Notes under the pieces: model-generated
Told to the model about the DNA's origin: nothing
The model's input: the letters and a program-made list of their open reading frames with translations, nothing else
Database searches by the model: none
Made by a program: the position numbers and the translations under genes
Shown: positions 7,828 through 56,029 of the stretch, one piece after another
How positions within the stretch are numbered: position 1 is the first letter of the stretch
How the letters are laid out: each line of letters begins with the position of its first letter
Origin: an uncultured Flavobacteriales bacterium
Lineage (GTDB): Bacteria > Bacteroidota > Bacteroidia > Flavobacteriales_G > Salibacteraceae
Length of the DNA: 57,501 bases
Direction: 5' to 3'
NCBI GenBank assembly: GCA_913062955.1
Contig: CAJXZP010000021.1
Location: 1 to 57,501, forward strand

Positions 7828-9144
7828 ATGAGATTATTATTTGCTATTCTGACTTTATCCATTGCTGTTTCCTCCACTTCGTGTAGGAAAGGGGAAATCA
7901 TTGGGCGTGAAGTCCAAGTGGGTAATAACGATATACTTCTTATAACTACGGATAGCTTCCATATTTCAGGATCTACTGTAGAAGCACAAACGGAAAGAAC
8001 AGATGAACGTTTTGAAGGAATGCTCGGAGCATATGTCGATCCTATATTTGGAACTAATGTGATCTCCTTTCATTCCCAATTTCATTTAGAGGAAGAAGGT
8101 TTTGTTTTTCCAAGTAATGCCGTTTTTGACTCCGCCTTTATCTCTTTTCGCTTAACAGGTGGCTATAGAGAAAAAGACATTCCAAATGAAAACGGAACCT
8201 TAGTGCATTTTGAAGTCTATGAACTGTCTGAAGACCTCAGTTATGAATCTCAATATCAATCCGATCAACAGATAGGAGTCAATCCAGCTTTAGTGGGTGA
8301 GTATAATGGAGAGGTGAATTTTGATAGTGTTTTTGTTAATGGAGTCGCTCAACCGGCACAGATTCGAATTCCGCTTTCACAAACTTGGACCGAGGCGATC
8401 ATGACCAGTGATTCTTCCAATTTTGAATCGAACACGGCATTTTCATCCTTTATGAAAGGCATGTCCATCAAACCCATTCAAACCAGTGACCCAAATAGCA
8501 ATGGAGCCATTTTTTATTTTAATCCCCTGAGTGCATTTACCGGGATAACCATCCATTACCATACGTCAAGCGACACCACTAAATTCGAATTCATTACCAG
8601 CAGCTTAACGGCCAACTTCATGACTTTTGAGCATGACTATGCGTCAGCACCCATTGGCTCCATATTAAATGACACCGCCATGGGTAGCGACAAACTATAT
8701 TTACAGTCCACCATTGGAACAAACATAGAGCTGGAATTAAAGGATATTGCCGCTTCTTTCGCTGCCAATCCAAAGGTAATTAACATTGCCGAATTATTTA
8801 TTCCAGTTGACACTTCTGAGGTATATACTCCTCTTTCGAAATTAACAGTGAGTAGAAAATTAGAAGATGGTACGGCAGAGCTTTTACCCGACCAAACCCA
8901 AACGGGTAATCGGATAATCGATGGTACGTTAAATTCGGATAGTAGTTATTACCGTTTTTTAATTACGCAATATGTTCAAGAAATAATTCATAATTATATA
9001 CCTGGAAGTGACAAATCTGAAATACTACTGATTAGTCCTACAGGAAATACGACATTAGCAAACAGATCCGTAATCAACGGCCCCAGACCTTTGAATCCTA
9101 GTGTTTCAAAGATGAAAGTTGTGATTACATATACACCCCTCTAA
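7828..9144 (+). CDS. DUF4270 family lipoprotein
   Basis: Read from 7828 the protein has 438 residues and a clear lipoprotein signal (MRLLFAILTLSIAVSSTSC, Cys at 19). An upstream in-frame ATG at 7711 would overlap the preceding gene by 80 bases and bury the signal peptide, so 7828 is preferred. The body ('RTDERFEGMLGAYVDPIFGTNVISFHSQF', 'FVFPSNAVFDSAFISFRLTGGY', 'FDSVFVNG', 'GMSIKP', late 'ISPTGNTTLANRSVINGP') is the pattern of DUF4270, a Bacteroidota surface or periplasmic lipoprotein family of unknown function. It lies 37 bases after the glycogen-synthase-like gene and 10 bases before glmS, probably in one operon. Confidence 0.9.
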   Translation: MRLLFAILTLSIAVSSTSCRKGEIIGREVQVGNNDILLITTDSFHISGSTVEAQTERTDERFEGMLGAYVDPIFGTNVISFHSQFHLEEEGFVFPSNAVFDSAFISFRLTGGYREKDIPNENGTLVHFEVYELSEDLSYESQYQSDQQIGVNPALVGEYNGEVNFDSVFVNGVAQPAQIRIPLSQTWTEAIMTSDSSNFESNTAFSSFMKGMSIKPIQTSDPNSNGAIFYFNPLSAFTGITIHYHTSSDTTKFEFITSSLTANFMTFEHDYASAPIGSILNDTAMGSDKLYLQSTIGTNIELELKDIAASFAANPKVINIAELFIPVDTSEVYTPLSKLTVSRKLEDGTAELLPDQTQTGNRIIDGTLNSDSSYYRFLITQYVQEIIHNYIPGSDKSEILLISPTGNTTLANRSVINGPRPLNPSVSKMKVVITYTPL

Positions 9145-9154
9145 ACTATTTAAT

Positions 9155-10999
9155 ATGTGTGGAATTGTTGGATATTTAGGCTCACGTGAAGCTTACCCAA
9201 TTTTAGTAAAAGGCCTTAAAAGGTTGGAGTACCGAGGTTACGATAGTGCTGGGGTAGCCTTAGGGACTCCTAATCATATTGAGGTAATCAAGAAACAAGG
9301 CAAGGTTGTCGATTTAGAAAAAGAGGCTATTGGAAAAAACATCACCGGATCGATAGGTATTGGACATACTCGATGGGCCACTCATGGAGTTCCAAATGAT
9401 GTCAATTCCCATCCCCACTTTTCTGAATCGGAAGAATTAGTGATCATCCACAATGGAATAATTGAGAACTATGATTCTTTAAAGAAGGAACTCATTAGTC
9501 GGGGTTACACATTTAAAAGTGATACGGATACCGAAGTTCTAATAAATTTTATTGAGGAGATCAAGAAAGCGGAACAAACTACACTTGAAAAAGCGGTCCA
9601 GATGGCCTTGACCCAAGTAGTAGGAGCCTATGCTATTGCGGTGATGGAAAAAGGGAATTTAACGGAGATGGTATTGGCTAAAAAAGGGAGTCCAATGGTT
9701 ATCGGAATTGGTGACAACGAATTTTTTGTCGCATCCGATGCATCGCCATTTTTAGAATATACCAAAGATGCTGTCTATTTAGAAGATGAAGAAATGGCCA
9801 TCATTAAACTGGGCGAAGGCATCACCATTAAAACCGTTCATGGTAATGTTCAAGTAGACCCCTTTATTCAAAAACTCCAACTTAATTTAGAAGCGATTGA
9901 AAAAGGTGGATTTGATCATTTTATGCTCAAAGAAATTTACGAACAACCCAAATCAATAAGAGATACCCTTAGAGGTAGAATGTTAGTGGATAAGGGAATC
10001 ATTTCTATGGCTGGATTTCAGGAGTATGAAGCCAAATTTCTAAATGCAAAAAGAATTATCATCATTGGATGTGGTACTTCGTGGCATGCGGGTTTAGTCG
10101 CAGAATATTTGATAGAACAATTTGCAAGAATTCCTGTAGAGGTAGAATATGCCTCAGAATTTAGGTATCGAGATCCCATTATCAATTCGGATGATATTGT
10201 CATTGCCATTTCACAATCGGGCGAAACTGCAGATACTCTTGCGGCTATTGAACTAGCCAAAGAACGAGGAGCGACCATTTTCGGTATTTGCAACGTAGTG
10301 GGTTCCACAATTGCACGAACTGCTCACGCTGGAGCCTACACCCATGCAGGCCCAGAAATTGGCGTTGCATCCACAAAAGCATTTTCTTCTCAAGTTGCGA
10401 TTTTGACTTTAATCGCCCTCCATTTAGGACATAAAAAAGGAAATATCGCGCAATCGAGATTTCACGAACTACTGACGGAATTGGATTCTATCCCGGAAAA
10501 AATAGAAACCATGTTAAAATCGGATGACCGTATTTTAGAAATCACTGAGAAATACGGCCAAATGAGCAACTTCCTTTATTTAGGTCGAGGCGTTAATTTC
10601 CCGGTAGCTTTAGAAGGAGCTTTAAAACTAAAGGAAATCTCCTATATTCACGCGGAAGGATATCCGGCAGCGGAAATGAAACATGGTCCCATTGCGCTAA
10701 TTGATGAAAGTATGCCTGTGGTTGTTATTGCAAATCAAGGATCACAATACGAGAAAATCGTATCCAATGTTCAAGAAATAAAAGCGAGAAAAGGTCAAGT
10801 AATTGCGATCGTTAACGAAGGGGATCAAACCATTAGTGAATTGGCAGATTTCCATATCGAAATTCCGGTAACAGAGGAAGCGTTCACCCCATTAATTACA
10901 ACCATTCCACTTCAGTTATTATCCTACCACATCGCTGTATTAAGGGGTTGTAATGTAGACCAGCCTAGAAATTTAGCGAAATCAGTTACCGTTGAATAA
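9155..10999 (+). CDS. glmS: Glutamine--fructose-6-phosphate aminotransferase (isomerizing)
   Basis: GlmS makes glucosamine-6-phosphate from fructose-6-phosphate and glutamine, the entry point to peptidoglycan and LPS amino sugars. It has 614 residues. The N-terminal glutaminase begins with the catalytic Cys2 ('MCGIVGYLGSREAYPILVKG'), followed by 'RLEYRGYDSAG' and 'GHTRWATHG'. Two SIS sugar-isomerase domains follow ('IIGCGTSWHAG', 'ISQSGETADTLAA', 'GRGVNFPVALEGALKLKEISYIHAEGY'). The C-terminus is the conserved 'RNLAKSVTVE'. I saw no ribozyme-like leader; the gene follows the DUF4270 gene by 10 bases. A strong hairpin lies 13 bases after the stop. Confidence 0.98.
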   Translation: MCGIVGYLGSREAYPILVKGLKRLEYRGYDSAGVALGTPNHIEVIKKQGKVVDLEKEAIGKNITGSIGIGHTRWATHGVPNDVNSHPHFSESEELVIIHNGIIENYDSLKKELISRGYTFKSDTDTEVLINFIEEIKKAEQTTLEKAVQMALTQVVGAYAIAVMEKGNLTEMVLAKKGSPMVIGIGDNEFFVASDASPFLEYTKDAVYLEDEEMAIIKLGEGITIKTVHGNVQVDPFIQKLQLNLEAIEKGGFDHFMLKEIYEQPKSIRDTLRGRMLVDKGIISMAGFQEYEAKFLNAKRIIIIGCGTSWHAGLVAEYLIEQFARIPVEVEYASEFRYRDPIINSDDIVIAISQSGETADTLAAIELAKERGATIFGICNVVGSTIARTAHAGAYTHAGPEIGVASTKAFSSQVAILTLIALHLGHKKGNIAQSRFHELLTELDSIPEKIETMLKSDDRILEITEKYGQMSNFLYLGRGVNFPVALEGALKLKEISYIHAEGYPAAEMKHGPIALIDESMPVVVIANQGSQYEKIVSNVQEIKARKGQVIAIVNEGDQTISELADFHIEIPVTEEAFTPLITTIPLQLLSYHIAVLRGCNVDQPRNLAKSVTVE

Positions 11000-11000
11000 A

Positions 11001-11372
11001 TTATTCTGCCCACATAAACACTTTTTCACTCGGTGAAAAAGTGTTTATGTCTTTGGTAGCCAAAATGGCGATAATATCGCTCACCATTAAAATGCCAAAT
11101 CCGCCACCTAAAGTTAAGGTATAAATTATGGGCACTTTATTGGATGTACCGAGGTACAATCGATGTACTCCAAAAACACCTAAGGTAAGCGCAAGAACAA
11201 TAGCAACGGACTTCTTTTTAATCCTAACTTCCTCCCTAATCGAATCCATCTCCGGGTAAAAAACAGCCATCTCCAAAACCACTGGCGCCTCCATTTTTAT
11301 AGCATTGGCATAACCAACAGTACCACCAATAATAAAACCCAACACCAAGAAAATACGTAAAAACCACTTCAT
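11001..11372 (-). CDS. TM2 domain-containing membrane protein
   Basis: This 123-residue protein has an N-terminal signal or membrane segment (residues 1-24), a short loop, then the TM2 domain: 'KSVAIVLALTLGVFGVHRLYLG', a 'GxxGxHRFYLG'-type motif, then 'LGGGFGILMVSDIIAIL'. TM2 proteins are small two-helix membrane proteins of unclear function. It starts 2 bases after the S41 protease gene and is likely co-transcribed with it. Its last 13 codons before 'WAE' coincide with a perfect hairpin (11012-11050), so the C-terminal peptide DINTFSPSEKVFM is encoded by self-complementary DNA. It converges on glmS with a 1-base gap. Confidence 0.87.
   Translation of the reverse strand: MKWFLRIFLVLGFIIGGTVGYANAIKMEAPVVLEMAVFYPEMDSIREEVRIKKKSVAIVLALTLGVFGVHRLYLGTSNKVPIIYTLTLGGGFGILMVSDIIAILATKDINTFSPSEKVFMWAE
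11012..11050. terminator. Perfect 18-bp hairpin between convergent glmS and the TM2 gene
   Basis: Arms ACATAAACACTTTTTCAC (11012-11029) and its exact complement (11033-11050) flank a TCG loop. It starts 13 bases after the glmS stop and lies entirely inside the end of the TM2 coding sequence. It probably terminates glmS transcription, and being symmetrical it would also fold in the opposite RNA. There is no long T run after it. Confidence 0.7.
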
Positions 11373-11374
11373 AT

Positions 11375-12994
11375 TTACCTTCCTAATACACGATCAACAT
11401 CCAAGGATATTGCTTCATTTATGGTTCGATCCCTTTCGTTCCAAATAGGATAAAACCCTTCATTACCCCAAATATTTCGAGCTATATTAGCCTTTAATCT
11501 GGAAATTATAATATTCTCTGACCTTTCAAATCCAGACGTATCAAAAACGACACCTTTATCATCTGCATATGAAATAAAGTCTTTCATCAACTTATCACTC
11601 ACTTCAAAGGAGGTTTTGAAATCCAAAGGATTTTCATAAATGCCAAAGGAAGCTCTATTATAATCTGCATACTGAAAAGCGAAACCATAAATGACTCCAT
11701 TATAGAGCAGCTGATTCAGGAACGCAGAACCTTGAGTCGTATCCAATGCAACAAATACATCCGGTATAATTCCCCCACTACCAAATACCGTACGCCCATT
11801 ATCCGTTTTATAAATACTTGAATCGGTAATATTAATACTGTCTTTTGACAATAGCTCCCCTGTTTCGTACCGATGATAATAATCGTTATTATAGGCATCT
11901 ACACCATTAGAATATGGCTTTTGAATGCAACGACCCGAAGGCGTATAATACCTAGCAATAGTCAAGCGGGTGGCACCACCATTAGGCCATATATTCTGTT
12001 CTTGTACTAAACCTTTTCCGAAAGACCTACGACCCACAATCACCCCTCTATCATGATCTTGTATGGCACCGGCAAAAATTTCACTAGCTGAAGCGGAACT
12101 TTCATCCATCAGAACAACGACTTCTATATGGTCAAATTCTTCATTTGACCGAGCAAAAGACTCCGATTTAGCACGGGATTTCCCTTGGGTATACACCAAT
12201 AACTCACCCTTATCAAAAAAACCATCTAACATATCCGTAGCCGCATTCATGTAGCCCCCTCCATTTCCTCGCAAATCGATCAAAATCCGGTCTGCATCAG
12301 ACGCAACCAATTTTCTCATTCCAGAATAAAATTCTGCTGAAGTGTTGGCCCCAAATCGATCTACTTTAATGTAACCACATTTTTCATTTAGCATATAACT
12401 TATACTCACACTATGAATTGGAATTTTGTCTCGAATAATGGAGAAGTTTAATTCTTCCGTTTTTCTACGGGTAACGGTAATAGTCACTTTAGTTCCTTTT
12501 TTTCCCTTTAATAATTTTAGAACGGTTCTATTTCTAACCCCAACTCCAGCGATCAATGAGTCGTTAACCCGGATTATTCGATCACCAGCTTTGATCCCCA
12601 CTTTTTCCGATGGTCCTCCAACAATAGGATCAATAACCACCAGGGTATCATTTTGAATATTAAACTGGATTCCAATTCCATCAAAGTTCCCTTCCAAAGG
12701 TTCATTCATTTCCGCTAGTTCTTCTGGGGAAATATAATAGGAATGAGGATCCAGGTCTTTCAAAATACGCTTAACCGTCTTTTCAATTATTTCATTTTTA
12801 CTCACTTCGTCCACATATTCCGCATCAATATAATTAATGACCTCTGTGAGCATATCAAAGCCGTTATCCGATCGGTTGGATACTACTTTCCCACTTTCTT
12901 CCGTAACAAATGTGGTTCCCATCCAAAAGCCAAAAGCCAACGCTAGCCCAGTAACAAAAGGAACAAAAACTTTCCAATTCTGATTATTTTCCAT
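11375..12994 (-). CDS. S41 family C-terminal processing protease (CtpA-like)
   Basis: This 539-residue envelope protease has an N-terminal membrane anchor or signal ('VFVPFVTGLALAFGFWMG', about 9-26). A PDZ domain covers about 95-175 ('FDGIGIQFNI', 'PSEKVGIKAGDRIIRVND'). The S41 catalytic core contains 'ILIDLRGNGGGYM' (237-249), the nucleophile in 'DESSASASEIFAGAIQDHDRG' (Ser near 300-304) and the general-base Lys327 in 'FGKGLVQEQ'. Such Ser/Lys proteases trim C-termini of periplasmic or outer-membrane proteins. A C-terminal region of about 190 residues extends beyond the core, as usual in Bacteroidota members. A TACCTTTG promoter element lies just upstream. Confidence 0.95.
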   Translation of the reverse strand: MENNQNWKVFVPFVTGLALAFGFWMGTTFVTEESGKVVSNRSDNGFDMLTEVINYIDAEYVDEVSKNEIIEKTVKRILKDLDPHSYYISPEELAEMNEPLEGNFDGIGIQFNIQNDTLVVIDPIVGGPSEKVGIKAGDRIIRVNDSLIAGVGVRNRTVLKLLKGKKGTKVTITVTRRKTEELNFSIIRDKIPIHSVSISYMLNEKCGYIKVDRFGANTSAEFYSGMRKLVASDADRILIDLRGNGGGYMNAATDMLDGFFDKGELLVYTQGKSRAKSESFARSNEEFDHIEVVVLMDESSASASEIFAGAIQDHDRGVIVGRRSFGKGLVQEQNIWPNGGATRLTIARYYTPSGRCIQKPYSNGVDAYNNDYYHRYETGELLSKDSINITDSSIYKTDNGRTVFGSGGIIPDVFVALDTTQGSAFLNQLLYNGVIYGFAFQYADYNRASFGIYENPLDFKTSFEVSDKLMKDFISYADDKGVVFDTSGFERSENIIISRLKANIARNIWGNEGFYPIWNERDRTINEAISLDVDRVLGR

Positions 12995-13010
12995 ACAAAT
13001 TCTAAAAGCT

Positions 13011-13018
13011 CAAAGGTA
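13011..13018 (-). promoter_or_regulatory. Predicted -7 element of the S41 protease gene
   Basis: The minus strand reads TACCTTTG, ending 16 bases before the ATG at 12994. A TTTG at 13046-13043 lies 24 bases further upstream. Confidence 0.45.
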
Positions 13019-13318
13019 AATTTTATCCGAGGAATTAATCTCCAAATACAGCACCGATTTTTTAGCGCAACCATATTTCCTATTTGCCAAGGAATATTTA
13101 AGGATCAAATAATCCAGTAATAAATATAAATTTAATATTCCACCAAATTTTATTCGCTCTCTTTAATTGCAACGTCATTTTCTTTAAATATAGAGTCAAA
13201 GAAACATTACGTAATCAAAAACTTTAATAAAAATTAACATAGTCGACCAAATGTTTATACATTTTAACTCTGAATGTGAGAATCAACCAATTGTAGGCGT
13301 TGAGATTACTTTCAAAAA

Positions 13319-13374
13319 AATCCTTTGCTACAAGGATTCAACCCGTTAAGACATTGTATTTAGGCGTCTTAGCG
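13319..13374 (+). promoter_or_regulatory. Two consecutive stem-loops in the probable SusC leader
   Basis: The first stem-loop is AATCCTTTG CTA CAAGGATT (13319-13338, one bulge). The second pairs CGTTAAGAC (13344-13352) with GTCTTAGCG (13366-13374) through one G-U pair and a 13-base loop. They sit 5 bases apart and 40 bases before the start codon. Together they may fold in the mRNA leader. Any regulatory role is inference. Confidence 0.35.
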
Positions 13375-13414
13375 ATCTATTTATTTATTTTTTTGTAACA
13401 ATTAAAACTATGCT

Positions 13415-16400
13415 ATGAGGAACAAAAACTACTTTTTGTTATTTATCGGGCTTTTATTCGCCACGATTTCCTTTGCCCAGGTCACGGTAAAAGGTACCGT
13501 CACGGACAAAGATGACAACTCCCCCATCCCGGGAGTAACAGTTGTAATTCAAAACACAACTAGAGGCACAATCACCGACATTGACGGTAAATACGAATTA
13601 CAATTAGACTCCCTAGGACAAACCCTGGAGTTCAAATTCGTAGGAATGCAATCCGTAACGCAAATAGTCACCACCACCACCGTAAATATTGGAATGAGTG
13701 CGGGAATGGAATTACAGGACGTTGTAGTTACTGCGTTAGGTATCTCCAGAGAGAAAAAGGCACTGGGATATTCTACACAAAAAGTAGATGGTGAAGATCT
13801 AAACAATGTAAAATATGATAACATCGTTAATTCCATGTCTGGTAGAGTTGCCGGAGCCCAAGTAAAACAAAGTGGGAATTTCGGTGGATCCACCAATATT
13901 GTGTTAAGGGGAGCTACCTCTTTAATAGGAAACAACCAGGCCTTATTTGTAATTGATGGTGTTCCCTTAGATAATACCAATTCAAACAGTTCCTATCAAG
14001 CCCAAGGGGGTGGTGGATACGATTATGGAAATGCCGTTTCGGATTTAAATCCAGACGACATTGAGTCCATGAATGTTTTAAAAGGAGCTGCAGCAACCGC
14101 CCTGTATGGTGAAAGAGCAGCAAATGGTGTAATTATGATCACCACAAAAAAAGGTTCAGCCACTGGTAAAAAGGGTATTGGAGTTACATTCAACTCTAAC
14201 TACACATTTGGAAAAGTGGATAAATCTACATTTCCGAAATATCAAACGAATTACGGAGCAGGTTATGGACCGTATTATTCTGGAGCAGATGGCTCAGACG
14301 ATGCAGGAGATGGTGGAACCAAAGCAGGTTTTGAATATTACGATTTTGATGGGGATGGAACCAATGATTATGTGGTACCATTTACGGAGGATGCTTCTTT
14401 CGGAGAAAAATTTGATGGCACGGAAGTTTTCCAGTGGGACGCTTTACATCCTGCTTCACCAAATTACATGAAAAAAACAGCTTGGCAAGAGGCTGAAAAC
14501 GGAGGTATCACTTTCTTTGAAACCGCACAGTCATTTACAAATAGTTTGGCTTTAACCGGAGGTGGAGACAAAGGAAGTTTCCGTATTTCCTACAGGAACT
14601 TAGACCAAAAAGGTATTTTGCCTAACTCGCAGTTAGAGCGAAACAACATCTCTTTTGGATCATCTTATAAAGCCACAGATAAATTGACGGTTTCTATTGA
14701 TGCAAATTACGTTAACACAGCAGCTACTGGAAGAAATTCTACAGGGTATTCTGACAACATAATGAGTATGTACAGACAGTGGTGGCAAACGAATGTGGAT
14801 GTGGGTACTTTGAAATCTATATACGAAAACAGCGATCAAAACATCACTTGGAACCCAAATTATTCTTACGGACAAGGAAGTACAAATCCAATCTATTGGG
14901 ATAATCCATACTGGAGTCGTCACGAAAATTACCAAAATGATGTTAGAAATAGAATTTATGGTAATGTATCTATGAATTACAAAATAACTTCCAATTTAAG
15001 CGCTTTAGTTCGATTTACATTGGACTCTTATTCCGAAACTAGAGAAGAAAGAAGAGCCGTAGGTTCCATTTCAGCTCCATTTGGCGTACCCTCTGCGGGA
15101 GAAGTTACCCCAGCAGATCAAGCCTCTGGATATGGAAGAGCTGAAAGAAATTATTCAGAAAGTAACGTTGATTTCATATTAACCTACAATAAGGATTTAA
15201 ACAAAGACTTAAATCTAAATGTTATGGCGGGAACCAATTACCGGAAGAATCAACTCACCGAAATTAGAAGTTCAACCAACGGAGGATTAATTATCCCTGG
15301 GTTATATTCCCTTTCGAACGCACCTTCAACGCTAACCAGCGAAAGAGACGAAACCAAAGCAGTTTCCAGTGTTTACGGAGCGGCAACATTTGGATATAAA
15401 AGATACCTATTTCTAGATATTGCCATGCGAAATGATATGTCTTCTACCCTAGGCGCTGATAACAGAAGTTATTTTTACCCAGCCGTTTCGGGAAGTTTTG
15501 TCTTTTCTGAATTCACTAAATCCAAAGCAATTTCCTTTGGAAAGGTTAGATTAAACTATGCACAAGTAGGTAAGGCAGCTCCATGGGGTGTTACAGCTAC
15601 TACTTATAGTATACCGCCTTCATTTACGAGTCCGATTACATCTGCAAATAACACAGAAAACAATCCAGACTTAAAACCAGAAAGAACAAATTCTATTGAA
15701 GCTGGTTTAGAAATGTATTTCTGGAATAGAAGATTAGGTGGAGATATTGCGGTTTATCAAACCAACTCCAAAGATCAAATCGTTCGAGCACCAGTTTCAA
15801 GAGCATCAGGTTATTCATCCAAATGGATAAATGCAGGAGAAATCGAAAATAAAGGAATCGAAATCACCATTAACGCGGTCGTTATGAAGAAAAAAGACTT
15901 TCAATGGGATATCGGTTTAAACTGGGCTAGAAACGTAAATAAGGTAAAATCCTTAGCTAGTGGAATTGATAACTTAGAACTAGGAAACTTCCAAGGTGGG
16001 GTTAGTATTAATGCACGCGAAGGAGAAAGTTACGGAGCTATACAAGGATCTGATTACATCTACAAAGATGGTGAAAAGGTGATCGGAACAGATGGGTATT
16101 ACCTCATTACCGAGACCAATGACCAAGTTATCGGAAATATCACCCCCGACTGGACTGGAGGGATCACTAATTCCTTTAAATACAAAAGTTGGGCAATGAG
16201 TTTCTTAATTGATTGGCAAAAAGGTGGTGATATCTTTTCTTTGGATCAATGGTACGGAATGGGTACAGGTCTTTACGAAGAAACAGATTATACCAACGAC
16301 CTAGGTAACCCGGTTCGAAATCCTATTGATGATGGAGGAGGGTTAATACTAGACGGAGTAAAAGAAGATGGTTCTGCAAATGACATTAGAGTTTCAGGGA

Positions 16401-18162: not shown

Positions 18163-18194
18163 AAAAAAGGCCGTTCAAATGAACGGCCTTTTTT
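18163..18194. terminator. Bidirectional intrinsic terminator after susD
   Basis: AAAAAAGGCCGTTC and GAACGGCCTTTTTT form a perfect 14-bp stem with an AAAT loop. The T run gives a classic terminator for the SusCD operon on the plus strand. By symmetry it also serves RNA coming from the tRNA-Leu gene on the minus strand. Confidence 0.93.
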
Positions 18195-18195
18195 G

Positions 18196-18279
18196 TACCC
18201 CGGGGGGGAATCGAACCCCCACTCCCTTGCAGGAACTGGATTTTGAATCCAGCGCGTCTACCAGTTCCGCCACCGGGGC
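18196..18279 (-). tRNA. tRNA-Leu (anticodon CAA)
   Basis: The minus strand folds as a class II tRNA. The acceptor GCCCCGG pairs with CCGGGGT, the anticodon stem is CTGGA/TCCAG, and the loop TTCAAAA gives anticodon CAA (UUG codon). A long variable arm follows, then a T arm of GGGGG TTCGATT CCCCC. The discriminator is A, as expected for leucine. CCA is not encoded. Confidence 0.95.
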
Positions 18280-48712: not shown

Positions 48713-51700
48713 CTACCCGCTTAAGTTAAATCGAATACTAAATCCACCGTTAGTAGTCGAATTAGGATAAGAAAGAGAGATCACTGGTGTATTCGAGATA
48801 TAGTCAAAGAAGAGACGAAGAGTTAATTTAGAACTCAATTTGTAATCCCCTGTCAGTTTCAATGACAATGAATTTTGACCATTGGTAGGCGTATTTGGAT
48901 TAATCTCAGTATCCAACTGACGAGTGATACTCAAACTCTTTCTTATGGAAAAATCACCTCGCACTTTGAAATCACTTTTTATGGCTCTTCGCTTGGTTTT
49001 TGGTTGGAAAGGCGCTCTTAACTTCTTAAAAGTATAGCCTAGGCCAATGGTTAATTCTTCTCCTCTAATTTCTAATACTTGTAAACTACGGGTACTTAAA
49101 TTTAAAGTTCTGTTTTTCTTAAAGGCAAATTTCACTTGAATGGAATTCTTTAAGGTAACATCAATTCCAATAAGAGGACTAAACGACTCGTTGATCGTAA
49201 TTCCATTAAAGTTGTTTTTTGCCGTGAAATTATTATTAATGGAACTCGTATCCCTTACGGAGGTAAATCCAGTTCCAAGCTTATCATCATACTGCACATT
49301 TGAGGTATATCCACCCACTATATACGCTGACTTATAGCCCGAAGTAATACTAATATTTCTAAATTTCTTTTTTAACGCAGGGATTTTAGCCAACCCAGAA
49401 TAGGTTAAGCGCATATTGGGAATATAAATTTTACTAAAAATATTTGTACTGTAATCCTCGGCATCCTTTCCACTATATGCCGCCAAAAATGCTGGAATCA
49501 ACACATCGGAATGATTGGGTCCAAAACCATCATAATAACCACTTGAGGTAGCTCCGTCAGAATATGCGGTATCATTTTTTGCAATAGACGCCTCCCCTAA
49601 CCTTTTAGAAATTATCACCCTGTTTTCCGAAAACTGTTCAAATGCCTGACTGATATAATTATCCCCATCCTTACCAAATGCGGTACCAAACATAAAGAAT
49701 GAGGAAGTGAAATTACCTTGCATGATTGGGCTATCTCTTTGAAATACATCCGTCACCAACTCACCCTCAATTTCAATTTCATCGTAATATCGATTGTACG
49801 TAGAATAGCTTTGCACATCATTCCACATGGTATTTAATTCCACCCTAAAATCACGGATAGGTTCTAAGGTTAACTTCAAATTTAATTTCTCACCCGTGGT
49901 GGTTCGATACTGATTATTAAAATCCGGATTCTTCCAGAGCCATTCATTCTTTTCCGCATAACCCAAGTAATCTTCGGAATCTCCAAAACCCGCTTGTTGT
50001 CCAAAAACAAAACCCCATCCTGGAGCAGACCAATCCGAATTCATCCCCATAGCTTCGGTTTGTGGGATATAACCCGGAAGCATAATACCTTGAGTATGTC
50101 CATAACTCGCATCCCCTTTTCGCACCATCATCAATACTCTGGCAAATGCATCTACAAAAGCAGGGGGGCCTGTCTTTTTAGGTTTTTTAGATTTTGCACT
50201 CCCCGTATCCGCATCCGACTTAGCCGTTTTAGAACGTGATTCCGCTGTTTCTCGTTTCTTAGCTCCGGGTCGCTTGGAGTTGATTCTTTTTAGGTACTTA
50301 GATTTATTATATAGGTTCACAAAATTCAACGATCCATTTAATTGAATGTTTTGGGTGTTTTGAATGGTGTTATTCGAATCCTCATTAATAATTAAAGGTC
50401 CTCGAACCCAACTATAGGTAGACCCATACTTGAAAGTAGTTTTGGTCCAATCTAAGACGGGGATTTTATTAATGGGTACATTCCACGTTAAATTAAACCC
50501 ATGATTGTAATTCATCGTTTTACCAAACTCCCTAATACTTGCCATTACCGTATCTCTCCAATATTCTTCATCTTGCGGACGTTCCGCAGTTTCTTCAATT
50601 AAAGATTTATTAGTTGCGTTAAAGTCAATTTTTAATCCTTTCGCCAAATCCCAACGAAATCCATACTTTCTGTTCCAATCGAAGGTTTTATTAACGTAAA
50701 CTGGAATATCGGTCAACAATTCTGGGTTGTTGTTTCGGGTACGAGATTCTTGATATTGACGATTTACATCGGTAGAAAAGGTGAAAGATTTGGGATAAAG
50801 GTTAAAGTTTAAATCTTTCACCAAGGCAAACCAATCGGAACTATTTAAAAATTTGTTTTGTGCAAATGGTTTAATGTTTTTGGGAGACGTAGAGAAATTA
50901 TACCCCAATCCACCCCGATATGTTTTTGTGTTATCGAATTCGGTTTCAAAATCATGCATTTCGGTAGAATTAAACGAATAGTTCAATGCAAAATTGGAGA
51001 TATCATACACTTGGCGTTTTTTCTTAACATTGGTTTTTTCCTTCCGTACATTGGTAAAATTCAAACTCTTTCGAGTCACCACTCTTTGCTGCACATTCCG
51101 TACCGAATCTTGTTGCCTCCCCGCAGGGAATGCTTCTTTCACGTAGGTATTAAATTCCACATCTGGAGCCAATGGTGCATATTGAGGTTTTACAATCCCA
51201 ATAGTATAACCTGCATAAGCTGGAATTTTAATTCCCGATTTCTTACCAAAGAATTTACCCAAATCTGCATTGGCTTGTAGATCCAAATCTTGACGAGTTT
51301 CCCGTTGACGTTCACTAATTTTCTTTTCAATACTTCCCCATCCTGGAGTACTCATACTACCTGAAACCGAAACATTGGCAAAGTCAGCCAGTTTTGCATT
51401 TGCAGTTACAATAGCTGCCCATCCACTTTGGTCATCAAAATCAGAAAGACGTAATTCATTAAACCAAATTTCGGCACATTTAGCCTCTCCATCATCCGTT
51501 TCATCGCCTAGTTTTTTTCGGGGATTACGAACCCCCAACATGATTGTTTTTACTCCACTTAAAGTTGGATTACCTACAATGGTTATTCTCGCTTTACCGA
51601 CTTGCAAAGAATAAGGATTTGAGAAATCAGCTAGTCCCCCGGCCAAAATAGCTTCCTTGCCTCTTTTTAACTTGACGTCCTTAAAATCATTTAAAGAAAT

Positions 51701-54700
51701 CTCCATATTATTCGCTTCCGGCCAAACAATTAACCTTTGTTGGTCGTCATCCCCATTATATTGTCCTTCTGGCGTAATTTTTAGCGGGATTTCATATTCG
51801 TAATAGTTATTTTCAAAATCGGTTCCTACGCGCATAAATGCGACCAATTCATTATCGTTTACCGGCATTTCATCAATATAAGACTCGGCATGCACAAACA
51901 TCTTAATGGTATTATAAGACAACATATCGAGATCAAAAGATCTATACACCCCTCTACCTTCTCCATCCGGTAAGGCACACAAGTTAACCGCTAAAGACTG
52001 CTCATTTAACTGGTTTTGGTTCGTAGAACCCACATTAGTTTCTCTATTAATAGCAGGAGGTAGTACATAATTAACGGGTATTTTTGACGAGTTCACCTCA
52101 ATATTTACGGCAGATACATCAAAATTGGTATTGTCATCTCCTAAAATATATTCACCGGCATCTTCTAAACTACCATCATACTTTCTCCATTCCCCACGAA
52201 CCAATTCGAAACGCGCCAAACGCATCACCGCTTCATGTTCGAACCCTCTCATGAACACCCGCATAAAACGAATAGAATTGAAATCTCTAGCTCCACCTAC
52301 AGAAATACCCTGACGAATTGGGATTTTTAATTGATACCAATCAATTTCTCTATCCCGGCCATCTTTGGTAGGGATGGTGGCAGTACGAACATCTGTAATG
52401 TAGTTATTTCCTACATTATCTCGGTTAAAATCAGATTTACTCACTTTAATCTTATACTGCCAATAAGATTCCGTTTCATCTACATTTTTATCCTTATTAA
52501 TATCCTCTTGATTGGGACGAGAAGAACCTAGAGCATCCCCATCGGAACCACTAATTGGGGAGTTTCCTTCGTACCCATTAAACTTTTTATACCGAGTTAA
52601 AATATCCGCTTCGGCATTATCATAGGCATCTGTTTTAAAATACTGGAAGTTATCTTGAGAAATATCATTGGCAAGAACAGGAATATTGGCTACCTGAGAA
52701 GCATAATTAGAAAAGAATATTTGCTCTTCACCATCTCTTAAACCATCTAAACCCACATCTTGGTATTGCCGTGCATCTGGGTCATTATCAAAGCCATCTA
52801 CAATTTGGTTACCAGGAGTGTATCTACCCCAGCTAGAAGTAAATGGCTCCGTAGCAATATCGGTGGGTGGTACCGAAATTCCATTTTCAAAAAAGTTTTG
52901 CCCATCTCGTTGCACATCTTCAGAGATAGAACCTAAATTGATATACATTTCACCCTTGTCATCCGAATACGCATAATCCTCATTAAATGGATCCATTACC
53001 CAAATTTGGATGTATTCAATATTGGATGCTTCAAAGTTCTGTTGGGTAATTTTTCGTTGAATTCCACCCCATCTCGTTTCAGGAGCTAAAAGAGACCCAT
53101 CATTAAGGTCAATACCCTCACTATATTTTGTCCCGATAGAATCTTCCCCGTTAAAATCGTAGTTGTTTTGGCCTTTTTCTGAAGGATAAAAGGCCAAATC
53201 TAAGGTACGTATATTCTGATTTTGAACACTACTAACTTGTTGATTTTCAAAAACCTCCGTCACGGTGATTTCACGCATAAAGTGATTACTGGTCATGGTT
53301 GGATCATTCTTGATATGCGCAGGTGTTCTAGAGTCATCTCTAAAAAACAATTGATCAATTTGATACCAGGAAAATAAAGCTCTATTAAAACCCAAGGCTA
53401 CATTATTAGACAAAGAAGCTTCTGGAAACAGATTGGATTGGTTTTGAGGAATAGAAGCCAAAGACCAAGAACTCTGGGTCATTAATTCAATGGTGGATTG
53501 ACTACCTTCAAAATCATCAATATAAGAATTTCCATCTTTTCCAATTGCTTTGGAGTGTCCTGGAAGAAACTGTGCAAATTCACCTACTACGGAAAAATTT
53601 GATTTTGCCTTGGTATCAATTCCAGGAATCTTATCCACCAATCGAGTTAATAACTGAGACTCTGAACGGTAAGTTCCATCCACCCCCCAAACGGTATTTG
53701 AAATAGGCTCATCCCCATAACTCGTTTTTTGAGTTAATGGTCTTTCGGATAAATTCATAATAGTACCCCCAACTAAGAAATCTTTCGAGATTTTGAAATC
53801 AAAACGAGCCGCCATCATGGTTTTGGTTTGAATGTTAAATAGCGAATTACTTTCTAAAGAAATTTTGATAGGAATACCGGACTCCAATAAACCTTGATTC
53901 AGTATTTTCACTCTACCTCTATTGTAATCTACGGTATAATCAGATCCTTCTACCAGTTCTCTTCCACCAGCAGTTACCTTTACCGAACCTTCTGGTATTT
54001 GCATGGCGCCCACTGAGATATCACTACTTACGGAAGATTCATACTTTCCTTTAAAATAAAATCTATTCTTATTTGGGAACTTGGCCTTTGCTTCTGGCTG
54101 TGTATTGGTATATAAGGAATCGAATGCGTATTTCTCAATAAAATCAGCGTCTCCATTGGAAATATTATGAATATGACTTCCAAACGGTTCCAATACCGGG
54201 AAGAAAATCTTACCATTTCGGGGATTAATATTAGGGACATGCGTTGGGGCGGATAAGAAATCAAAAACGCCATCCGGACCTTTTCTCATATTCCGATCCA
54301 TTACATCTAAACCCATTACTTGAATTAACGGAATCCCTGAAACCAAATCAGACCCTGTAGGAAGGTAATTGGTAGGCACTCCGGTTCTTCTATCCAAATA
54401 CCAAATATCAAATTTGAAGTTATTCGCTTGAATTTGGTACGCCCCAATCGAATATACATTCTTCATCATCAAATCCCACATCGGTGCCTGAGTATTGATT
54501 TTTGAACTCTTCAACATTTTGGTAATCATGGCTTTTTCGTTCGCTACATCGGTAGAAAACTCACCTACTTGAAACACTTCATTTTGATACGTATATTGGT
54601 AGGCTACTGACAACACCTGATTGGGTTGCATTTCCATGTTTAAGGAGATCACTCCAAGCAAAGGATTGAATGAATAATCGTTTGCGGCAAGTAATCTAGC

Positions 54701-56029
54701 CAAACCCACTTTTTGATAATCTTCTTGCGACACATAACCCATAGCCTCCAGAACAGGGGTAGCTTGGTTATAATTTTTCACGGGGTCAATATTAACTTGA
54801 CTAAACAGGGAATTGGAATTATTACTTGGATATTCCGAACTAGAATAAACAACCAAAGGTCCACGGCCATCTTGGTTGAATACTTTCGTGGCATCCACTT
54901 CTCCTAAATCTTGAAATGCGATTAAGTTTCTTGTATTTTGAGTGGTGTTATTATTGTTAGTTACCCACACTTCGATACGAGTTACATTAAATCTGGACGA
55001 TACAAAAGGAGGACTACTAGACATAGCCTCTTCGTAATTATCTCGAAAGTATTGTGAAATAAAATAATGCCGGTTATCATCGTATTCATCGGCCTTTAAT
55101 TCGTATTCCTTTACTTGTGCCCCACCCTTTACCTCAATCTCTTCTTTTTTACCTTTTTGTTGGGAGATTACACTCGTTACTTCTAATCTTCCAAATTTCA
55201 ATTTGGTTTTTAAACCAAACAAACTTTGCGAACCTGTAATTAATGACCCGGATAATGGGAGAGCTACGTTACCGGCTTCAATTTTTTGAATAATGTCGTC
55301 ATCATAACCCGTAAAATCAATTTTTACTTGATTTTCGAAATCGAAGGTAGCCTCGGTATTGTAATTGATGGACATTTTCAACTTATCGCCAATATTCCCA
55401 ATCAGGTTAACTTGTATTTGTTGATCAAAGTCAAAAGTGGTGATACTCCGCTGTCTTTCGGACAGAGCCGGATTTTGGGTTTTGGAATTCTTTAATCCAA
55501 ACTTTACTTGAGCCGATCCACTTGGACGAATATCAATAGTATTTCCACCAAAAATATTATCAAATCCCTTGCTATCAATATTTAAAGCTGGAATCAGGTC
55601 TTTACTTTTAGGATTATCTTTACTAAACTCACTAAGTGTCGCATTCTTTTCTCGCCAATAGTCAGATAACGCTTTATTTAAATCATACTCTTTATATTCC
55701 TCGAAATTCATCGTGCTAATGGGACGATAATCCAATGTATCCCCAATTTTGGTCACGATATAATAATTTCCAGAAACAGGATCGTATTGAATTTCTTGGG
55801 TGATATTGTCCGGATCTTCTAAATTTATTGGAGATTCGGATTGATTAAACGGGCTGACACTATTGTCTTCGTACGGATATTTTAAATCAATGGTATCTCC
55901 TGAATCTGTTGGGATTACCTCATACGAATACTCGTAAGCTATCTTTGATGCTTGTACCGAGAAATTAGCCATAAAAAACATGGCTAACCCTACTAGTAAA
56001 ATTCTTATCCCGTAAATATTATCCAACAC
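48713..56029 (-). CDS. sprA: Cell surface protein SprA (T9SS outer-membrane translocon)
   Basis: SprA is the giant beta-barrel that forms the outer-membrane channel of the type IX secretion system and is needed for gliding. The 2438-residue length agrees with known SprA proteins (about 2400). There is an N-terminal signal (to about 'FSVQA', 27), followed by 'IDIRPSGSAQVKFGLKNSKTQNPALSERQR' and 'LIGNIGDKLKMSINYNTEATFDFENQVKIDFTGYDDDIIQKIEAGNVALPLSGSLI'. Many barrel strands and conserved blocks follow, such as 'EIWFNELRLSDFDDQSGWAA'. A Lys/Arg/Ser-rich stretch near 1930-1985 precedes 'PPAFVDAFARVLMMVRKGDASY'. The C-terminus is aromatic-poor 'GGFSIRFNLSG'. The start codon is GTG at 56029, 19 bases after ruvA. 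Confidence 0.97.
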   Translation of the reverse strand: MLDNIYGIRILLVGLAMFFMANFSVQASKIAYEYSYEVIPTDSGDTIDLKYPYEDNSVSPFNQSESPINLEDPDNITQEIQYDPVSGNYYIVTKIGDTLDYRPISTMNFEEYKEYDLNKALSDYWREKNATLSEFSKDNPKSKDLIPALNIDSKGFDNIFGGNTIDIRPSGSAQVKFGLKNSKTQNPALSERQRSITTFDFDQQIQVNLIGNIGDKLKMSINYNTEATFDFENQVKIDFTGYDDDIIQKIEAGNVALPLSGSLITGSQSLFGLKTKLKFGRLEVTSVISQQKGKKEEIEVKGGAQVKEYELKADEYDDNRHYFISQYFRDNYEEAMSSSPPFVSSRFNVTRIEVWVTNNNNTTQNTRNLIAFQDLGEVDATKVFNQDGRGPLVVYSSSEYPSNNSNSLFSQVNIDPVKNYNQATPVLEAMGYVSQEDYQKVGLARLLAANDYSFNPLLGVISLNMEMQPNQVLSVAYQYTYQNEVFQVGEFSTDVANEKAMITKMLKSSKINTQAPMWDLMMKNVYSIGAYQIQANNFKFDIWYLDRRTGVPTNYLPTGSDLVSGIPLIQVMGLDVMDRNMRKGPDGVFDFLSAPTHVPNINPRNGKIFFPVLEPFGSHIHNISNGDADFIEKYAFDSLYTNTQPEAKAKFPNKNRFYFKGKYESSVSSDISVGAMQIPEGSVKVTAGGRELVEGSDYTVDYNRGRVKILNQGLLESGIPIKISLESNSLFNIQTKTMMAARFDFKISKDFLVGGTIMNLSERPLTQKTSYGDEPISNTVWGVDGTYRSESQLLTRLVDKIPGIDTKAKSNFSVVGEFAQFLPGHSKAIGKDGNSYIDDFEGSQSTIELMTQSSWSLASIPQNQSNLFPEASLSNNVALGFNRALFSWYQIDQLFFRDDSRTPAHIKNDPTMTSNHFMREITVTEVFENQQVSSVQNQNIRTLDLAFYPSEKGQNNYDFNGEDSIGTKYSEGIDLNDGSLLAPETRWGGIQRKITQQNFEASNIEYIQIWVMDPFNEDYAYSDDKGEMYINLGSISEDVQRDGQNFFENGISVPPTDIATEPFTSSWGRYTPGNQIVDGFDNDPDARQYQDVGLDGLRDGEEQIFFSNYASQVANIPVLANDISQDNFQYFKTDAYDNAEADILTRYKKFNGYEGNSPISGSDGDALGSSRPNQEDINKDKNVDETESYWQYKIKVSKSDFNRDNVGNNYITDVRTATIPTKDGRDREIDWYQLKIPIRQGISVGGARDFNSIRFMRVFMRGFEHEAVMRLARFELVRGEWRKYDGSLEDAGEYILGDDNTNFDVSAVNIEVNSSKIPVNYVLPPAINRETNVGSTNQNQLNEQSLAVNLCALPDGEGRGVYRSFDLDMLSYNTIKMFVHAESYIDEMPVNDNELVAFMRVGTDFENNYYEYEIPLKITPEGQYNGDDDQQRLIVWPEANNMEISLNDFKDVKLKRGKEAILAGGLADFSNPYSLQVGKARITIVGNPTLSGVKTIMLGVRNPRKKLGDETDDGEAKCAEIWFNELRLSDFDDQSGWAAIVTANAKLADFANVSVSGSMSTPGWGSIEKKISERQRETRQDLDLQANADLGKFFGKKSGIKIPAYAGYTIGIVKPQYAPLAPDVEFNTYVKEAFPAGRQQDSVRNVQQRVVTRKSLNFTNVRKEKTNVKKKRQVYDISNFALNYSFNSTEMHDFETEFDNTKTYRGGLGYNFSTSPKNIKPFAQNKFLNSSDWFALVKDLNFNLYPKSFTFSTDVNRQYQESRTRNNNPELLTDIPVYVNKTFDWNRKYGFRWDLAKGLKIDFNATNKSLIEETAERPQDEEYWRDTVMASIREFGKTMNYNHGFNLTWNVPINKIPVLDWTKTTFKYGSTYSWVRGPLIINEDSNNTIQNTQNIQLNGSLNFVNLYNKSKYLKRINSKRPGAKKRETAESRSKTAKSDADTGSAKSKKPKKTGPPAFVDAFARVLMMVRKGDASYGHTQGIMLPGYIPQTEAMGMNSDWSAPGWGFVFGQQAGFGDSEDYLGYAEKNEWLWKNPDFNNQYRTTTGEKLNLKLTLEPIRDFRVELNTMWNDVQSYSTYNRYYDEIEIEGELVTDVFQRDSPIMQGNFTSSFFMFGTAFGKDGDNYISQAFEQFSENRVIISKRLGEASIAKNDTAYSDGATSSGYYDGFGPNHSDVLIPAFLAAYSGKDAEDYSTNIFSKIYIPNMRLTYSGLAKIPALKKKFRNISITSGYKSAYIVGGYTSNVQYDDKLGTGFTSVRDTSSINNNFTAKNNFNGITINESFSPLIGIDVTLKNSIQVKFAFKKNRTLNLSTRSLQVLEIRGEELTIGLGYTFKKLRAPFQPKTKRRAIKSDFKVRGDFSIRKSLSITRQLDTEINPNTPTNGQNSLSLKLTGDYKLSSKLTLRLFFDYISNTPVISLSYPNSTTNGGFSIRFNLSG

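Follow-up and report, generated by a model that had tools for sequence, protein, structure and literature searches.

The stretch of DNA analysed here, called the window (57,501 nt from an uncultured Flavobacteriales bacterium), carries a glmS gene and a gene for a TM2-domain protein that face each other tail to tail, their stop codons 1 bp apart. We infer the name glmS from the domains of the product, a glutamine amidotransferase plus two SIS stretches. The TM2 protein matches Pfam TM2 (PF05154) with an E-value of 3e-11 and 43.8 bits, above the gathering cut-off of 27.9. Because only 2 bp separate the TM2 gene from the S41 peptidase gene upstream of it, the two probably belong to the same operon. 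Elsewhere in the window, a 2438-aa open reading frame (ORF) occupies positions 48713-56029 on the minus strand. Inside the last codons of the TM2 gene lies a perfect inverted repeat (11012-11050) with 18-nt arms, 100% complementary, and a 3-nt spacer. The features of the junction are as follows.

9155 to 10999, plus strand: glmS, glutamine-fructose-6-phosphate aminotransferase (assigned from domains), stop codon 10997-10999
11001 to 11372, minus strand: gene for the TM2-domain protein, 123 aa, convergent with glmS, stop codon 11003-11001
11375 to 12994, minus strand: gene for a PDZ-containing S41 peptidase, upstream of the TM2 gene by 2 bp
11012 to 11029, plus strand: left arm of the hairpin, ACATAAACACTTTTTCAC; on the minus strand, codons for (S)EKVFM of the TM2 protein plus the first W121 base
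11030 to 11032, no strand assigned: loop of 3 nt, TCG on the plus strand and CGA on the minus strand
11033 to 11050, plus strand: right arm of the hairpin, GTGAAAAAGTGTTTATGT; on the minus strand, codons for DINTFS plus the first base of P
11044 to 11058, plus strand: imperfect U-rich tail (score 3.39), TTTATGTCTTTGGTA, that follows the 11-bp core stem when read in the glmS direction

Twelve bases separate the glmS stop from the stem, which in the TM2 gene runs from the second base of the D108 codon to the first base of the W121 codon (DINTFSPSEKVFM). The first-pass annotation had described a perfect 18-bp hairpin with a 3-base loop in the C-terminal TM2 codons, starting 13 bases after the convergent glmS stop, and every one of these details agrees with the coordinates (glmS 9155-10999, stem from 11012). 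Folding of 68 nt of RNA gave -26.9 kcal/mol (z -7.6) for the plus strand and -25.1 kcal/mol (z -6.3) for the minus strand, and none of 200 shuffles was equally stable on either strand.

The perfect stem is not attributable to chance. Across all synonymous ways of encoding the peptide, with codon usage as the weight, the probability of a perfect 18-bp stem was 6.8e-5; the most frequent outcome was 13 of 18 pairs, so the peptide alone goes far towards the palindrome. We sampled 1,211,785 bases of the genome (31% of 3.91 Mb), a non-random set of 61 pieces of up to 20 kb that comprised 60 stretches of the longest contigs and the window, in which any ORF reaching 70 aa was called as a gene, without a trained gene finder. 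This sample held seven perfect stems of at least 18 bp with loops of 3-10 nt, five of them intergenic, one at an ORF edge and one, the junction hairpin, inside an ORF. Several other in-ORF stems that lie 3-15 nt from a called start probably reflect mis-called starts. We also shuffled synonymous codons 15 times in 837 ORFs no shorter than 150 aa, a set for which the TM2 gene itself is too short; no shuffled stem exceeded 15 bp, and stems of 14-16 bp numbered three in the real sequences against a mean of about 0.33.

A search of the genome sequence with the 25-nt core of the hairpin found one other place within 3 mismatches. With a core this close to single-copy, membership of a repeat family, a REP-like element or a mobile element is ruled out. 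An Rfam scan of positions 9000-13500 yielded no family, its two matches both falling far under the gathering score. The hairpin might also act as DNA, for example as a protein-binding site or a cruciform, and its 39-bp symmetry, perfect except for the loop, would suit such a role; yet an essentially single-copy core leaves no regulon for it to serve and the palindrome sits at gene ends, not at a promoter, and we consider a DNA-level function very improbable. Separately, two nearly identical 17-bp intergenic stems elsewhere in the same genome (L060:13362-13398 and L065:10973-11009) may form a small repeat family.

The hairpin had also been labelled a terminator in the first-pass annotation. That label holds to the extent that a stable hairpin lies 12 nt past the glmS stop, but the sequence that follows the stem scores low. 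Among 100 intergenic stems of this genome the median U-tail score is 4.99; with the 11-bp core, the junction stem scored 3.39 towards the glmS side and 3.05 towards the TM2 side. The composite score, from a d'Aubenton-Carafa-type formula that can be used only for ranks within the genome, was -11.7 in the glmS direction, higher than 14% of the intergenic stems, and in the TM2 direction exceeded 12% of them. A consensus terminator scan did not list the hairpin, and as a canonical intrinsic terminator it is a weak candidate.

The same annotation had implied that the hairpin serves both genes as a true bidirectional intrinsic terminator. The outer stem is symmetric (ACATAAA/TTTATGT), and on both strands the core is preceded by A-rich and followed by U-rich sequence; a scan of the 110 nt beyond the TM2 stop revealed no other terminator; and PMC7566282 cites E. 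coli intrinsic terminators as often working two ways between convergent genes. In addition to the weak tails in both directions, the position of the stem speaks against this proposal: in the TM2 direction it closes 9 nt ahead of the first base of the stop codon, and thus a transcript ending at the usual distance of 7-9 nt past the stem would be expected to lose part of that codon. Moreover, the other long stems of the genome are mostly intergenic, with an A-run and a T-run around a G+C-rich core, an architecture that the junction stem does not share. The junction resembles the bidirectional terminators of E. coli and Z. mobilis in having a hairpin at two convergent gene ends and a symmetric, A/U-biased outer stem, but differs from them in its weak U-tract and in lying inside coding sequence, where a transcript end costs part of a stop codon. 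Taken together, these points make a bidirectional terminator improbable.

To place the junction among comparable gene pairs, we collected 147 convergent pairs with gaps of up to 400 bp in the genome sample, 61 of which were tight (gap below 25 bp). Of the 61, the glmS/TM2 pair alone had a perfect stem (10 bp or longer) within 100 nt, which indicates that tight pairs normally do without one. Looking up to 110 nt past the stop, and hence into the opposing gene, we found terminator scores above 0 at 4 of the 122 tight-pair ends, compared with none of 77 control stretches deeper in opposing genes; the glmS end ranked fifth of the 122, behind these four clear terminators. Where the gaps were wider, terminators were found at 28 of 54 ends (25-60 bp) and at 49 of 118 ends (60-400 bp). 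The four clear hairpin and T-run terminators at tight ends (L076, end 8046; L041, 18110; L073, 13458; L039, 15266) finish 58-95 nt past the stop, within the opposing ORF. Tight convergent genes are thus common in this genome, with 118 of 122 ends lacking a clear intrinsic terminator, and a strong stem in the codons of the opposing gene would illustrate one possible way for the RNAs of these genes to end.

Neither hairpins at the ends of convergent genes nor palindromes within coding sequence are new. Work by Ju in 2019 and Wang in 2023 is said to deal with bidirectional terminators and polymerase collisions. A literature search that was not directed at glmS/TM2 by name turned up no description of this junction. 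For Flavobacterium psychrophilum, PMC9723704 reports 287 transcribed regions antisense to 281 genes (12% of genes), which stem mostly from imperfect termination or non-canonical starts; on that account, an overlap of the glmS and TM2 RNAs would not be unusual. A further parallel is the hairpin of the E. coli convergent terminator ynaJ-uspE, which in vitro, according to PMC13082048, fixed the stopping point of head-on polymerases and gave the collided complex a half-life (T1/2) of 150 +/- 40 min, against 6 +/- 3 min without the hairpin. By analogy, the junction hairpin, folding behind either polymerase, could hold it, so that both transcripts would end near the stem without a strong U-tract. 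Both systems place a hairpin between convergent genes, and the weak U-tail of the palindromic stem, like the 1-bp distance between the two stops, would fit. The junction hairpin, however, is embedded in codons and known here from sequence, perfect stems of 10 bp or longer are missing from 60 of the 61 tight pairs in the sample, and TM2 transcripts that ended at the stem would be left without a complete stop codon. A role as a collision site is possible by this analogy, though we judge it decidedly unlikely.

Next, we examined the junction in relatives. A TM2 match was found in 34 of 80 genomes searched (the window's own included), with loci for 29 of the matches, and a scan of genome contigs gave 39 TM2 loci, about ten of which came from the same genomes and had identical endings. 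Convergent glmS and TM2 genes no more than 60 bp apart were present at 11 distinct loci, with two further loci at 118 and 298 bp, a count that omits loci where glmS lies further away or outside the fetched flank. The tail-to-tail arrangement is seen in the window (9155-11372) and in relatives L004-L008, L010, L022, L026, L027 and L110. It occurs within the genus and as far out as other families in the class, a spread that points to an old arrangement.

The stem, by the same comparison, appears young. TM2 endings hold a 14-residue spacing in the relatives scored, which makes the stem comparable in register. From 64 loci, after setting aside 10 same-genome duplicates and 10 loci without an [MGLF]W ending (three of these end in FIW), 44 distinct endings were scored. 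Pairing was complete in the window (18 of 18) and nearly so in the congener G002 (16 of 18); only 6 pairs form in the congener G001 and 3-11 in each of 41 further relatives, with one ending among these 42 (L032) registered on the wrong W. The first-pass annotation had taken maintenance of the stem in relatives as a test; in general it is not maintained, and a structure conserved across the class is ruled out, only the window and G002 pairing well. G001 has the same convergent junction and lacks the stem. In glmS, G002 shares 577 of 614 residues with the window and G001 shares 539, which makes G002 the closer relative; the stem may have been gained on the line leading to the window and G002, or lost in G001, gain being the simpler reading.

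We then compared stem strength at the tight junctions with that of control stretches from the same loci, which overlap one another; duplicates and the junctions with gaps of 118 and 298 bp were omitted. The junction stems of two of the three genus genomes, the window (-22.8 kcal/mol) and G002 (-20.3 kcal/mol), were matched by none of 76 overlapping controls in each. Two other junctions were borderline: G008 has a stem with a T-run in its 56-bp gap, equalled by 5.8% of controls, and G019 an 11-pair stem across the TM2 stop, equalled by 4.5%. In L110 a stem spans the overlapping gene ends, and 11.5% of controls were as strong. In all, 7 of the 11 tight junctions were equalled by 11.5% or more of their controls. 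With only the window and G002 beating all controls, the idea that the glmS junction is a general hairpin site is unsupported. The absence of the stem from G001, together with those seven junctions, indicates that glmS generally needs no hairpin here.

Within the lineage that has the stem, silent sites were compared between the window and G002. Among stem codons that specify the same residue, 8 of 9 are identical; the corresponding counts are 23 of 62 for the remainder of the TM2 gene (one-sided Fisher 0.0045) and 274 of 563 for glmS (one-sided Fisher 0.017); with the loop codon included the count is 8 of 10 (one-sided Fisher 0.014). These figures come from one species pair and a stretch picked post hoc. 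The last five glmS codons, which lie outside the stem, are also identical, and the conserved block may thus exceed the hairpin. The sole silent change in the stem codons, GAA to GAG, faces a change from TTT to TAC on the other arm, so that pair 14 is T-A in the window and C-G in G002, both changes falling at codon third positions. This is one case of the compensatory third-base change that the first-pass annotation had proposed to look for, but pairs 10 and 13 are broken in G002 through second-position changes, and covariation measures on the three congeners did not rise above shuffles. Overall, the comparison is moderate, though not conclusive, evidence that the stem is of importance to the lineage that the window shares with G002.

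The earlier suggestion that peptide and palindrome must be kept at once is borne out in that the same bases serve both, although the burden is lighter than was claimed: in an alignment of 11 chosen TM2 homologues, M120 is the only invariant residue of the 13 at positions 108-120. TM2 homologues more widely share a common ending shortly before the stop, D-[IL]-x-x-[FY]-x-x-N-x-x-[VI]-[FI]-M-W, which in the window occupies 11007-11050 on the minus strand.

A protein motif of this kind could have seeded the palindrome with no function attached, replication template switching or drift having perfected the quasi-palindrome that the motif sets. Template switching is reported in PMC8794818 to make and repair perfect hairpins in one event, and template-directed repair could also yield the double change at pair 14. 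The youth of the stem, absent from G001 and from the 41 further relatives and with two pairs broken in G002, agrees with such an origin. The template-switch hairpins in RNA genes (PMC8794818) and the mitochondrial coding palindromes (PMC6649704) share with the junction a perfect inverted repeat whose arms are both functional sequence, and a one-step origin is possible for it too; the junction hairpin differs in being short, single copy and at a convergent gene end. What speaks against a neutral by-product is that silent sites are better conserved in the stem, with 8 of 9 codons identical, than in the other same-residue codons of the two species, of which 37% (TM2) to 49% (glmS) are identical. 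We regard neutrality as possible but on the unlikely side; if it holds, the junction illustrates well, on a small scale, how a protein motif can seed a palindrome.

We favour, at about even confidence, the reading that the hairpin is an RNA structure specific to this lineage; it would mark the 3′ end of glmS mRNA, and its location within the last codons of the facing TM2 gene would be incidental. The sequence data show the hairpin and its position, predicted stability, rarity and spread among relatives, as well as the silent-site conservation in one species pair; the function of the hairpin, the effect of ribosomes on it and its origin are all inferred. In the glmS direction, the hairpin would fold just past a ribosome on the glmS stop. 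It could then cause weak termination through the 11-bp core stem and the imperfect U-rich tract; or Rho, or collision with the facing polymerase, might end the RNA downstream, with the hairpin subsequently blocking 3′-to-5′ exonucleases. In the TM2 direction, the hairpin would lie in translated RNA and be melted by ribosomes, and no efficient termination would be expected because the mRNA would end without a complete stop codon. The hairpin may be tolerated in the TM2 gene because ribosomes would open it and most residues over it vary. As to origin, the common TM2 ending D-I...M-W would pair the outer bases if D is encoded by GAC before Ile (gACAT / ATGTgg), after which point mutation or template switching may have converted the arm over the variable residues into a reverse complement of its partner.

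A stronger proposal is that the junction forms a one-way, translation-gated transcript end: the palindrome would end or stabilize the untranslated glmS RNA, ribosomes would hold it open in the TM2 RNA, and the DNA would be selected both as peptide and as a direction-dependent 3′-end signal, with covarying silent sites. We consider this proposal doubtful. The junction offers a clean place for separating selection on RNA structure from selection on protein.

Away from the junction, a 14-bp terminator-like stem at 18163-18194 of the window abuts a tRNA-Leu(caa) gene (18195-18279, minus strand).
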